From Burkholderiales bacterium (GTDB lineage Bacteria > Pseudomonadota > Gammaproteobacteria > Burkholderiales > Burkholderiaceae_C), in assembly GCA_003963005.1 (NCBI GenBank), contig RXJW01000003.1:1-64000 (forward strand): a stretch of DNA of 64,000 nt. The letters run 5' to 3'. The notes below the pieces were generated by a model. The model made no database searches and was not told where the DNA came from. It was given only the letters and a program-made list of their open reading frames with translations. Position numbers and translations under genes: made by a program. The stretch's first letter is position 1. The number at the start of each line of letters is the position of its first letter. Positions 17,495-32,955 of this stretch are shown piece by piece.

Positions 17495-17776
17495 GTGGTG
17501 ACGCACTGGCAGCTGAACCGCGCCGACCAGGTGCGGGTACGAGAGTGGGATGATGGCGGCGTGATCTACGACGCGGCCAACGGCAACACCCACCTCCTCG
17601 ATCCGCTGGGCCTGGAACTGCTGGACCTGTTGCGCCAGCATGCCTGGGATCTGGGTGCGCTGGTGGCCGAACTTGCGCCCGTCATGCCTGACGACGTGCC
17701 GGCCAGCGATGTCCCCCGCGTGCTGCAGGCCAAGCTCGAGCAATTGATCCGGCTGGACCTGGTGTCACCCGCATGA
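17495..17776 (+). CDS. HPr-rel-A system PqqD-family protein
   Basis: 93 residues with the PqqD/RiPP-recognition-element fold signature: VREWDDGGVIYDAANGNTHLLDPLGLELLDLL and the trailing helix VLQAKLEQLIRLDLV. PqqD-like domains are peptide-binding chaperones that present a substrate leader to modifying enzymes. The start is uncertain: GTG at 17495 or 17498, with GGGAG rather far upstream. The stop overlaps the next gene by ATGA (17773-17776), so it is translationally coupled to the HprK-related kinase. This tight pair is characteristic of the annotated but uncharacterised 'HPr-rel-A' system. Confidence 0.78.
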   Translation: MVTHWQLNRADQVRVREWDDGGVIYDAANGNTHLLDPLGLELLDLLRQHAWDLGALVAELAPVMPDDVPASDVPRVLQAKLEQLIRLDLVSPA

Positions 17777-18705
17777 CGCAGCGCCTCGCCGCCCTCGGCG
17801 AGGGGGATGTGCTGCAGCTACTTCGTGGCCCGGGACTGACCCTGCAGCTGCCTCCCTTCGTGGCCCGGTTGACCTCCGACATTCCGCGCGTAGCGATCGA
17901 TCTGCTGCGGCTGTACGGCGATTTCGAGCTCGGCGACGTGGACGACTTCGCCGACTTTCACCTCGCCGTTAGCCACGACCGTGGCCTGCACGCCGTCTGG
18001 CGGCGTCTCGCCGGGCGACGGCAGGCGCGCTTCTCGACCGACGGCCTCGCAGCCTTCACCACCCTGCCCGCCCAGCAGGCCTTCCACATGGTGGAGTGGG
18101 GGTTGAATTGGGCCGTGACGGCGCATGCCCATCACTTCGTCGTTTACCACGCGGCCGTGCTGGAACGGGGTGGCCGTGCGCTGGTGCTCCCCGCACCGCC
18201 GGGCTCCGGCAAGAGCACGCTGACCGCCGCGCTCGCCCACCGCGGCTGGCGCCTGCTGTCGGACGAACTGGCCTTGCTGGACGCCCGCGAAGGCATGCTC
18301 TACGGCCTGGCGCGCCCGGTCAACCTCAAGAACCAGGCCATCCCGCTGATGCGCGCCTTCGCGCCCGACGCCGTGATGACCGAGCCGGTCCCGGACACGC
18401 TCAAAGGCACCCTGTCGCTGATGAAGGCACCCGCTGACGCCATCGCGCGGGTGCGTGAGGGGGCGCGGCCGGCGTGGGTCGTCGTGCCGAGCTACGAGGC
18501 CGGCGCGACGGCCTACCTGGAACCGCTGCCCAAGGCCCAGGCGCACCTGCTGCTCGCCGACCAGGCCTTCAACTACGACATCCATGGGGTCAACGGCTTC
18601 GAAGCCACGGCCGATCTGGTGGACGGCGCCAGTTGCTGGGCCTTCACCTACGCCAGCCTGGACGATGCCGTGCGGGTGTTTGATGAACTCGCCGCCGCCC
18701 CATGA
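17773..18705 (+). CDS. HprK-related kinase A
   Basis: 310 residues. The C-terminal half has an HPr-kinase/phosphorylase-like P-loop, PAPPGSGKSTLTAAL (Walker A at about 143-149), preceded by YHAAVLE with a His at 126 and followed by LLSDELALLD (163-165 SDE) at the position of the HprK catalytic acids. The N-terminal half is specific to this family. HprK homologues phosphorylate serine on proteins; members in lasso-peptide clusters phosphorylate the precursor peptide C-terminus. Start and stop are both ATGA-type; the stop TGA at 18703-18705 coincides with the first bases of the inserted 77-bp repeat. Confidence 0.82.
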   Translation: MTQRLAALGEGDVLQLLRGPGLTLQLPPFVARLTSDIPRVAIDLLRLYGDFELGDVDDFADFHLAVSHDRGLHAVWRRLAGRRQARFSTDGLAAFTTLPAQQAFHMVEWGLNWAVTAHAHHFVVYHAAVLERGGRALVLPAPPGSGKSTLTAALAHRGWRLLSDELALLDAREGMLYGLARPVNLKNQAIPLMRAFAPDAVMTEPVPDTLKGTLSLMKAPADAIARVREGARPAWVVVPSYEAGATAYLEPLPKAQAHLLLADQAFNYDIHGVNGFEATADLVDGASCWAFTYASLDDAVRVFDELAAAP

Positions 18706-18779
18706 GCGCCGCGCCGGGCCGTCCCAAGCAAGCTCGCTCCCGCCTGGCGGGACAGCGCGCAGCGCGAAGGGTGCACCCG
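18703..18779 (+). repeat. 77-bp start-codon element, copy 1
   Basis: First of two perfect tandem 77-bp units between the kinase and nucleotidyltransferase genes. It starts with TGA, shared with the kinase stop, and ends in CACCCG. It contains a stem CCCGCC-T-GGCGGG, outer GTCCC/GGGAC complements, and near its end GAAGGG. A TGA follows each unit, so its end plus the following bases read GTGA, that is, a GTG start codon. Confidence 0.92.
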
Positions 18780-18856
18780 TGAGCGCCGCGCCGGGCCGTC
18801 CCAAGCAAGCTCGCTCCCGCCTGGCGGGACAGCGCGCAGCGCGAAGGGTGCACCCG
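18780..18856 (+). repeat. 77-bp start-codon element, copy 2
   Basis: Identical to copy 1 base for base. Its last G is the first base of the GTG start codon of the nucleotidyltransferase gene, and GAAGGG (18843-18848) lies about 7 bases before that start, so the element appears to supply the translation initiation site. Removal of both units would leave ATGAGCCC, an ATGA overlap of kinase stop and downstream start. Confidence 0.92.
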
Positions 18857-19938
18857 TGAGCCCACCGCTGCTGCTGCAAGTCCTGCTGGCGCCCGCCGAA
18901 GCCGCGCGGTTGAGCCTGGCGGACTGGGACCTGCTGATCCGCCAGGCGCGTCGCGCCAACCTCATCGCGCGCCTGGCCACCGAGCTGCAACCCCAGCTCG
19001 ATGACCTGCCCGCCGCGCCGGTGCGCCATCTGCGTGCGGCCCTTCTGATCGCGGGGCGCCAGCGCATCGCCACGCGCTGGGAAGTGGCCTGCATCCGCCG
19101 GGCGCTGGCGCCGCACGGCATCGAACCGATCCTGCTGAAGGGTGCGGCCTACCTGATGCGGGACCTGCCCGCCGCTCGCGGCCGTCTGTTCGGCGACGTG
19201 GACCTGCTCGTGCCCCGCCACCAGCTGGCAGCGGCCGAGGCGGCATTGATCGATGCAGGCTGGGCGTTCGACGCCGAACTCACCGACTACGACCGCCGCT
19301 ACTACCGGGACTGGATGCACGAGATCCCGCCGCTGTTCCACCGGCAGCGTGACACGGCACTCGACCTGCACCACACGATCCTGCCACCGACGGCGCGCGT
19401 GAAGGTCAACACCGAGGCTCTGTTCGCCGACGCGCTGCCTGTGCCCGACATGCCGGGCGTGCGGGTGCTCGCGCCGGTGACGATGTTCCTGCACAGCGCC
19501 GCGCACCTGTTCCACGAGGGCGAACTGGACAATGGATTGCGGGATCTCTTCGACCTGGATGCGCTGTTGCGCGACTTCGGGCGAGATGCGACCTTCTGGC
19601 CCCGCCTGGTGCCGCGGGCTCGGGAGCTGGGTCTGGGCAGGCCGTTGTTCCATGCGCTGCGCTACACCACCCAACTGCTGGACACACCCGTGCCGGCCGC
19701 TGTGCTGCAGTCGGCAGCGACGGACGCTCCCGCCGCGCAGCGCCTGCTCGATGGGTGCTACCTCCGCGCCCTGATGCCCGCTCATGCGAGCTGTGACGAC
19801 GCCTTCACCGGTGCGGCACGCTTGGGCCTATACGTTCGCTCGCACTGGCTGCGCATGCCGGTGGGCCTGCTGGCCACCCACCTCGCGCGCAAGGCCTGGG
19901 GGCGCTTGCAGCCGCCGGCAGAAGCGCTGAAGGTCTGA
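18856..19938 (+). CDS. Nucleotidyltransferase-fold protein (NTP_transf_5)
   Basis: 360 residues. The nucleotidyltransferase signature of the NTP_transf_5 family is clear: PILLKGAAYLMRDLPAARGRLFGDVDLLVP, with the metal-binding pair in GDVD at 113-116. The C-terminal part (FLHSAAHLFHEGELDNGLRDLFDLDALL) has the His/Asp-rich helices usual in this family. Related proteins occur with HprK-like kinases in lasso peptide clusters and in polysaccharide loci; the chemistry is mostly unproven. The GTG start is contributed by the 77-bp element. It is the last gene of the cassette. Confidence 0.8.
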   Translation: MSPPLLLQVLLAPAEAARLSLADWDLLIRQARRANLIARLATELQPQLDDLPAAPVRHLRAALLIAGRQRIATRWEVACIRRALAPHGIEPILLKGAAYLMRDLPAARGRLFGDVDLLVPRHQLAAAEAALIDAGWAFDAELTDYDRRYYRDWMHEIPPLFHRQRDTALDLHHTILPPTARVKVNTEALFADALPVPDMPGVRVLAPVTMFLHSAAHLFHEGELDNGLRDLFDLDALLRDFGRDATFWPRLVPRARELGLGRPLFHALRYTTQLLDTPVPAAVLQSAATDAPAAQRLLDGCYLRALMPAHASCDDAFTGAARLGLYVRSHWLRMPVGLLATHLARKAWGRLQPPAEALKV

Positions 19939-31865: not shown

Positions 31866-32852
31866 TCAGTCGACCTTGGCGCCCGACACCTTCACGACCT
31901 TCGCCCACTTGGCCGATTCGCTGGCGATCAGCGCGACGAATTCAGCCGAACTGCCCCCGCCGGCGACGGCACCCTGCCCGGCCAGCCGCTCACGCAGGCC
32001 GGGTGTGCTCAGCGCTGCGGCAGCCTCGCGCTGCAGGCGGGCCACCTGATCGGCGGGCTGGCCGGACGGCGCCAGCAGCCCGAACCACGAACTCGCCTCG
32101 TAGCCCTTCAACACGGCACCACCCGCCTCGGCCACCGTCGGCAGCTCGGGCGCCGCCGGGCTTCGCTGGGCGCTCGTCACGGCCAGAGCCAGCAGCTTGC
32201 CGGCCTTGATGTGGGGCAGTGCCGAGGGCAGGTTGTCGAACATCAGGTCCATGTTCCCGGCGATCAGGTCCATCAGCGCCGGCCCGGAGCCGCGGTAGGG
32301 AAAGTGCAGCATGAAGCTGCCCGTCATCGCCTTGAAGAGTTCGCCCGCCAGGTGGATGGACGTGCCATTGCCGCTGGAGGCCATGTTCAGCTGGCCCGGG
32401 CGGGCCCGTGCGACGCGGATCAGGTCAGGCACCGACTGGATGCCGTACCGCGCCGCATGGGCCGGGTTGAGCACCAGCACGTTGGGCACAGCTGCCACCA
32501 GGGTGATGGGCGCGAAGTCCTTCACCGGGTCGAACGGCAGGCGCGGGTAGAGCGCGGCGTTGATCGCATGCGTGCCCACGGTGCCCATCAGCAGCGTGTG
32601 ACCGTCGGTGGCCTTGGCCACTTCGGCCGAGCCGATGTTGCCGCCCGCCCCCGCACGGTTGTCGACAACGACCGACTGGCCGAGGCGCTGCTGCAGTTCC
32701 GGCGCCAGAGCGCGCGCCAGCAGGTCGGTGGTGCCGCCGGGCGTGAAGGGCACGACCAGCCGCAGCGGCCGGGCTGGCCACGGGGATTGGGCCCGTGCAG
32801 GCAGCGCAAGACTGCCGGCCCAGGCCGTGGCCTGGCGTCGGGTGAGGTTCAC
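31866..32852 (-). CDS. Bug-family TTT substrate-binding protein, copy 1
   Basis: 328 residues. A Tat- or Sec-like signal ([21 protein letters not shown]) precedes the Bug/TctC domain: [53 protein letters not shown]. The start is GTG at 32852, whose G is the end of the inserted 77-bp element. Without the insert, an ATG with AGGAG 6 bases upstream would start the same protein as MNLTRRQ. Bug proteins bind carboxylates for tripartite tricarboxylate transporters or act as extracytoplasmic sensors; no TctAB membrane genes are nearby. It shares clear homology with the next gene upstream. Confidence 0.88.
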
Positions 32853-32928
32853 GGGTGCACCCTTCGCGCTCCGCACTGTCCCGCCGGGCGGGAGCGAGCT
32901 GGCTTGGGACGACCTGGCGCGGCGCTCA
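32852..32928 (-). repeat. 77-bp start-codon element, copy 3 (inverted)
   Basis: Reverse complement of the units at 18703-18856 with about seven substitutions in 77 bases and no length change. On the minus strand it begins TGAGCGCCGCG directly after GCCA and ends CACCCG before TGAACC, so it splits ATGA of the receptor gene start and re-creates GTGA. The upstream AGGAGATCGCC remains stranded on the far side of the insert. Confidence 0.9.
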
Positions 32929-32955
32929 TGGCGATCTCCTGGCTGTGCAGCCGTG

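Follow-up and report, generated by a model that had tools for sequence, protein, structure and literature searches.

Bacterial dispersed repeats are usually regarded as extragenic, and miniature inverted-repeat transposable elements (MITEs), enterobacterial repetitive intergenic consensus (ERIC) sequences and Correia-type elements are all small, non-autonomous and dispersed. Translational coupling of neighbouring genes, as described in the parts of PMC12548453 drawn on here, is most efficient at distances of −4 to +3 nt and about 3- to 10-fold lower by about +40 nt. Given this drop with distance, an untranslated insert of 77 nt should hurt a coupled pair of genes, whereas a translated one keeps a −4 spacing on both sides. 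Here we analyse an element of this length, present as two tandem units between a kinase gene and a nucleotidyltransferase gene of a Burkholderiales bacterium (assembly GCA_003963005.1, contig RXJW01000003.1, positions 1 to 64,000; this whole stretch of 64,000 nucleotides is called the window). The element sits at NTGA start sites, mostly 4-nt stop/start overlaps, and is flanked on either side by an NTGA joint; it is spread over many unlinked operons, and relatives lack it at the three joints compared. With a probability of roughly 0.78, we take it to be a non-autonomous dispersed repeat of Comamonadaceae/Roseateles-type bacteria that is tolerated as a translationally coupled mini-cistron.

Two units at the kinase/nucleotidyltransferase joint

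The gene for an HprK-related kinase A (17773..18705, + strand; TIGR04352, 345.7 bits, cut-off 200; also in the list of open reading frames, ORFs) ends on a TGA at 18703-18705 that overlaps the ATG of a first mini-ORF. The anatomy given for this place by the initial annotation is borne out by direct reading: the two 77-bp units at 18703-18779 and 18780-18856 are identical at 77/77 bases, unit 1 starts with the TGA that is the kinase stop, the last G of unit 2 and the following TG make a GTG start, and the Shine-Dalgarno (SD)-like GAAGGG at 18766..18771 and 18843-18848 (+) stands 7 bases ahead of each rebuilt GTG. Removal of the 154 bases brings CCCCA and TGAGCCC together as ATGAGCCC, in which the ATGA stop/start overlap is restored. 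What was overlooked is that an open mini-ORF extends over the entire unit and overlaps its neighbours by NTGA on either side. Unit 1 reads as a mini-cistron at 18702..18782 (+), with its ATG at 18702, 26 codons and a TGA at 18780-18782. Unit 2 does so at 18779..18859 (+), with a GTG at 18779, 26 codons and a TGA at 18857-18859 that overlaps the GTG of the nucleotidyltransferase gene (18856..19938, +; PF14907 NTP_transf_5, 195.6 bits; ORF). The order is kinase, mini-ORF 1, mini-ORF 2, nucleotidyltransferase, four cistrons linked in series through ATGA or GTGA overlaps, and 77 nt, being 3 × 26 − 1, is the exact length needed for a chain of 4-nt overlaps. Tandem Repeats Finder places the array first of nine rows for the window (period 77, score 319, next 75), and an Rfam search of 18400-19200 gave no match at E≤1.

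Three joints were compared by their downstream gene within the genus: the kinase/nucleotidyltransferase joint, an RmuC joint and the joint of an exosortase-associated hydrolase, with 20, 20 and 19 loci including the source genome, that is, the genome holding the window. Neither head A nor head B of the element (≤6 mismatches, within 250 nt before the gene) is present in the other 19, 19 and 18 loci, only the source genome having it, so that the alternative of a spacer conserved in all relatives fails at the window joint, where 0/19 other same-genus loci carry the element. The nearest kinase/nucleotidyltransferase relative (84% identical) has ATGA at the joint, and for RmuC the nearest relative (95%) has ATGAGC in place of the source genome's ATGAGC-element-GTGAGC. 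By a loose rule, an NTGA overlap is found in 19/20 kinase/nucleotidyltransferase, 11/20 RmuC and 18/19 hydrolase loci, the rest being spacers or not resolved. At the window and RmuC joints the nearest relative starts with ATG and the occupied site with GTG, and the last base therefore seems to be brought by the element. As judged from these empty sites, insertion was into a pre-existing joint. At the hydrolase joint of genome G001 a different, GC-rich insert (L325) follows the ATGA and seems to share the frame of the downstream gene; it may represent a different repeat that uses sites of this kind.

Dispersal and placement of the copies

A whole-genome search for the unit, as suggested in the initial annotation, returned 27 matches in the source genome at E≤1, the best 17 (L001-L017) at E≤4e-22, which marks a repeat and not a chance likeness. 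All 17 places have a 26-codon ORF with NTGA at each visible end. The upstream flank is visible in 14 of them, and 11/14 show a clear upstream ORF of 139-467 aa whose stop is the element's TGA; L008 and L013 lie at start codons that no stop overlaps, L012 being ambiguous. L013 is a further location of the element within the window, a 26-codon mini-cistron at 32849..32929 (− strand) before a 328-aa ORF starting at 32852; its TGA ends no upstream ORF, the target being a start codon alone. The downstream flank, again visible in 14 of the 17, shows in 14/14 an ORF of at least 70 aa that starts at the element's 3′ end. Identical 77-mers occupy two unlinked places (L005 and L006), a copy that has lost 33 nt (L019) still keeps its frame over 15 codons, and a diverged relative (L020) has 29 codons. 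Six contigs of the source genome (C13, C70, C103, C155, C181 and C185) end inside a copy or within 2 nt of one, which suggests repeats or arrays that break the assembly, for example at the purC joint (L005/L406).

Beyond the source genome, 19/19 other same-genus genomes match the element at E≤0.001. Named genomes were searched with an interior anchor picked without the element's ends, so that start codons were not favoured. This search gave at least 116 stretches and at least 125 anchors, with Variovorax, Rhodoferax, Hydrogenophaga, Acidovorax, Pseudorhodoferax, Xenophilus, Roseateles and Rubrivivax among the matches listed (80 of the 116 stretches). Also among the matches listed, 106/125 copies have an in-frame NTGA upstream and in 93/125 the frame reaches a closing NTGA within 120 nt, a strong bias of copies elsewhere towards start codons that agrees with what the initial annotation had supposed. 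From relatives, 80 loci were fetched, of which 12 were dropped as having no head A within 6 mismatches; 61/68 copies examined have NTGA at both ends in frame. The exact core pattern occurs in 48/299 genomes of the family, and a backward control pattern in 0.

The element also occurs on plasmid records, among which is a conjugative IncP plasmid. At three places on two such records, with a 65-nt unit, the annotated end of the upstream coding sequence (CDS) and the annotated start of the downstream CDS are the element's two ends; at a fourth place the downstream gene is at the element's end and the upstream neighbour is an IS110 gene, and two further matches, in a record without gene annotation, were left out of this joint comparison. 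On a plasmid of Rhodoferax antarcticus, a diverged match (76.5%; L368:1201-1281) falls within a Fic family gene. A search of 50,697 phage records gave 0 matches, and among 18 pattern matches examined from IMG/VR 0 are a copy with a whole head, L348 being a distant resemblance. No description of the element was found in open-licence papers, including by searches with the repeat letters and the peptide, and the portions of PMC2817692, PMC3733652 and PMC12306157 covered here make no mention of it.

Copies from the anchor and whole-unit searches, with duplicate contexts removed, numbered 223, and the test applied to them made no use of where the mini-ORF itself stops. NTGA stands at the exact head in 189/223; 32 upstream and 22 downstream frames of these 189 were left unassigned. 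The upstream gene frame ends on the element's TGA in 153/157 resolvable copies, and the 167 resolvable downstream gene frames stand in the NTGA relation in 140 copies, are fused to the element in 14 and lie in the third frame in 13. Where the upstream stop is on the element's TGA and the downstream frame is also resolved (136 copies), the NTGA relation accounts for 117, fusion for 11 and the third frame for 8. A further unit follows in 8/13 third-frame copies, and in 6/8 of these the last recognised unit is in the NTGA relation; L058 and L116, third-frame copies followed by another unit, have a degenerate last unit. An automatic rule finds a 4-nt overlap between the mini-ORF's stop and the next start in 119/149 copies, and the count becomes 134/149 once 15 wrong automatic starts are mended. 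The arrangement is that of a translationally coupled cistron, in which both joints have a −4 overlap and the frame between them is open.

Insertion machinery that cuts at NTGA could by itself create this bias, frame and coupling being passive, for NTGA flanks at both ends would follow automatically from such a target, and TGA is invariant at both ends of the aligned element. Yet in a Variovorax replicon with 46 annotated CDS only 10/23 NTGA stops overlap a start and only 10/26 NTGA starts overlap a stop, the same 10 sites being both, whereas 153/157 copies have the upstream gene stopping on the element's TGA and 117/136 have NTGA downstream too. Since few sites are double in this small sample, so strong a bias towards double sites calls for either selection or special targeting. 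Cutting alone also predicts many copies at lone gene ends or starts and indels spread evenly over the three length classes, and we consider it an improbable explanation.

Length, open frame and peptide

Among single copies with a resolvable gene frame (n=153), length is 3n−1 in 136, 3n in 7 and 3n+1 in 6, with 4 unassigned. The length classes of 26, 44, 50, 62, 65, 74, 77, 86, 89 and 149 nt are all 3n−1, and the mini-ORFs span 9 to 57 codons. The purC joint (PF01259) offers 18 resolved loci, of which 10 are empty, 7 hold inserts and 1 is a paralogous locus with 13 nt. The inserts measure 149, 26, 26, 74, 26, 74 and 26 nt (7/7 being 3n−1), where two lengths were set by the homologous start (automatic 68 and 50 becoming 149 and 74) with the class unchanged; the head and tail letters of the 26-nt forms are clear in L407 and L415 and less clear in L408 and L413. 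At one joint shared by two genomes (L142/L148), two indels place the head in a different frame from the tail, while the total of 62 nt is again 3n−1 and 21 open codons run between NTGA at both ends. A reading of L142/L148 as fusions was ruled out, the frame being compensated and coupled instead.

Tandem copies have periods of 77 (6 pairs), 65 (5) and 84 nt (4). The 84-nt period is 3n, and its successive units share one frame: in L080 and L158 the two units together make one mini-ORF (50 or 57 codons) that stops on ATGA, and in L152 they make one of 57 codons that stops on TTGA. By their reading frames, units of 3n length are mostly in frame with the next unit or gene. Those of L127, L193, L204 and L064/L074 are in the downstream gene's frame, a kinase domain being found in the frame of the unit in L193, and the head-B subtype is fused in L432, L435 (75 nt), L439 and L447, with L446 as another fused head-B copy. 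L432 is the LptB of genome G006 (372.5 bits, cut-off 240), the sole match above the cut-off in that genome. Past the element's ATG, no ATG, GTG or TTG comes in frame until the GTG of codon 47, and the domain match begins at residue 36, so that this GTG falls inside it. LptB would therefore be read from the element unless a non-standard start is used, and this protein seems to need the element's ATG.

Two further arrangements of units were seen. In Pseudorhodoferax sp. Leaf265 (L111:1700-1980) three tandem 84-nt units (3n) run in frame into a long ORF. In L215, L223, L232, L235 and others, a 72-nt palindromic segment is nested in the 26-codon unit in frame, giving a 50-codon mini-ORF; the segment has the look of one repeat that has entered another.

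Substitutions bear on what is maintained in the open frame. In 71 copies of the 77-nt type there are 135 synonymous changes (134.2 expected), 306 nonsynonymous changes (298.7 expected) and 0 in-frame stops (8.1 expected); in 41 copies of the 65-nt type the counts are 58 (43.9), 104 (116.0) and 0 (2.0). On these counts the frame stays open while the peptide appears to drift, with at most weak constraint in the 65-nt type. A functional micropeptide or operon-regulating leader peptide, kept for its amino-acid sequence, could explain the 12-residue start that head-A copies share and the slight synonymous excess of the 22-codon type. We give it very little credence: a micropeptide role was rejected on the near-chance synonymous and nonsynonymous counts of the 26-codon, 77-nt type, the second half of the peptide varies between length types, the frame-shifted L142/L148 encode another peptide, 9-codon forms persist, and the named flanking genes come from unrelated families.

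The same evidence bears on the initial annotation's idea of a portable translation initiation region, which would bring an SD-like site and a start, its interior being untranslated and its frame irrelevant. The SD-like site and start at the 3′ end and the placement at ATGA joints stand: GAAGG or GGAGG lies about 7-8 nt ahead of the start in most tail spellings listed, and the base of the downstream start can differ from the ATG of the empty site. What did not stand is the extent of the functional part, the unit being a whole mini-cistron. A bare initiation region predicts an unconstrained interior frame, and the 3n−1 length classes, the stops absent in two types, the compensated double indel, the 3n variants in the gene's frame and the LptB of G006 show that constraint is present. 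We regard an initiation region alone as distinctly improbable.

Hairpins, mobility and known systems

Directly ahead of the SD-like site stand hairpin A (6-bp stem, 3-nt loop; 18738..18752 in unit 1 and 18815-18829 in unit 2) and hairpin B (4-bp stem closed by C-G, loop GNA; 18755..18765 and 18832-18842), all on the + strand. Across 69 distinct copies, 96.6% of cells are paired in hairpin A, 98.6% in hairpin B and 97.4% in both together, with 70 double changes against 30.9 in shuffles and ≤11 in slid controls, a count in which a few events may have been inherited by many copies. Both-sided changes in hairpin B concern two pairs, in 32 and 33 of the 69 copies, and the loop is GNA in 65/69 and 39/39 copies. 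C-GNA-G is a known pattern of very stable DNA minihairpins. In IS200/IS605-derived elements the left cleavage motif is the target and stays outside, the right motif is borne by the element, and hairpins are subterminal; compared with these, the present element has a left NTGA that is kept, a right RTGA whose last base is brought by the element, and covarying hairpins.

An autonomous partner was sought by the tail pattern, which gave 62 tails in 13/20 genomes; none of the 30 loci examined holds a long element, each tail ending a short element or a remnant, and head B and the 26-nt forms came to light there. Head-B matches are mixed, many of 30 loci being a sister repeat family without NTGA. This family (L093, L133, L147, L164, L421, L424, L440, L441, L443-L445) shares the head letters, has a GCCCCCTCGGGGGGC-like hairpin and shows no tie to NTGA joints. 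A repetitive extragenic palindromic (REP)-type palindrome mobilised by a REP-associated tyrosine transposase (RAYT, of the Y1 type) would agree with the 1-4 Y1_Tnp matches found in every one of 22 genomes searched from the same genus and family, and with the existence of a related non-junction repeat family with GCCCCCTCGGGGGGC hairpins. The exact core motif is absent, however, from 20 Y1_Tnp loci with flanks of about 1.5 kb (L254-L273), and the consensus has no GTAG tag; such an origin is unlikely. The initial annotation's non-autonomous mobile repeat holds in being dispersed, non-autonomous and, by its empty sites, inserted into existing joints; any transposition machinery is putative.

As a translationally coupled mini-cistron, the element might work as follows. 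Ribosomes ending the upstream gene would reinitiate at the element's NTGA and read 9-57 codons; they would then terminate at its RTGA beside the SD-like site and reinitiate on the downstream gene, and with reinitiation at both joints translational coupling would survive. The peptide would be a by-product, selection acting to keep the frame open, the length at 3n−1 (or at 3n where the unit is fused in frame), and the hairpin and SD site intact. More tentatively, movement might occur as single-stranded DNA, the target NTGA staying on the left and the element's RTGA on the right, a view that fits the two hairpins and the NTGA-in, NTGA-out anatomy; tandem arrays would be re-insertions into the regenerated NTGA. 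To a bolder formulation we would give even odds, namely that this is a distinct class of mobile DNA, a translationally transparent cistron that invades coupled joints, rebuilds both sides and lets the ribosome pass through, that decays to 9-codon coupled scars or new in-frame N-termini, and whose C-GNA-G hairpin is a mobility signal.

Several observations weigh against a coupled mini-cistron. Most of the 3n−1 counts are inherited because the copies share descent, and only length classes and indels are independent. The RmuC joint has an overlap in only 11/20 genomes by the loose rule, the left joint of L407 is CTGA, which is not a usual start, and L418 has 13 nt at a paralogous purC joint. The downstream gene is in the third frame in L062, L099, L129 and L252; a TAG occurs after 15 codons in L428, well ahead of the next start, and two bases ahead of the ATG in L231; L249 has lost 1 nt, so that its frame extends slightly into the downstream gene, and L018 has lost its tail. 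The slight synonymous excess of the 65-nt type (58 against 43.9) could reflect weak peptide selection. Whole-unit folding, as RNA or DNA, is not better than shuffles for most strands, only the minus strand of the window unit and L082 folding modestly better, and no mobilising enzyme was found.

The element lives between overlapping genes and appears to follow the rules of translation, with an open frame, a 3n−1 length, an SD-like site and a double overlap. Natural pairs of occupied and empty joints that differ by one extra cistron offer a direct test of reinitiation models of translational coupling. The element may also be a route to new N-termini, as for LptB in one genome, and to tiny ORFs, and it suggests that many ORFs of 9-57 codons in these bacteria are one repeat family and not peptide genes.

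Among known systems, the element resembles MITEs, ERIC and Correia-type elements in being small, non-autonomous and dispersed with clean empty sites. Unlike MITEs it lacks terminal inverted repeats, the best ungapped match near the consensus ends being 6/10; TGA is present at both ends and in the empty site, where a TGA borne by the element and one duplicated from the target look the same. REP sequences and bacterial interspersed mosaic elements (BIMEs) are likewise short, dispersed hairpin DNA near gene ends, and GTAG termini of REPs often supply a stop TAG, according to the parts of PMC3733652 used here. The present element, by contrast, has no GTAG or CGTC tag at the palindrome foot, its ends being TGA...TGA, shows no RAYT linkage in the loci searched, and supplies stop and start at both ends plus an open interior. 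Rickettsia palindromic elements (RPEs), in the account given by the consulted sections of PMC10969869, are also short dispersed repeats with an open frame that are tolerated in an expressed coding context, but nearly half of them lie inside genes and extend proteins, whereas ours is mostly a separate intergenic cistron with NTGA overlaps at both ends and is fused in frame in a minority of copies. With ATGA-coupled gene pairs, as treated in part of PMC12548453, it shares the use of the −4 nt joint; what sets it apart from them is that a dispersed repeat doubles this joint and brings in an entire additional cistron.

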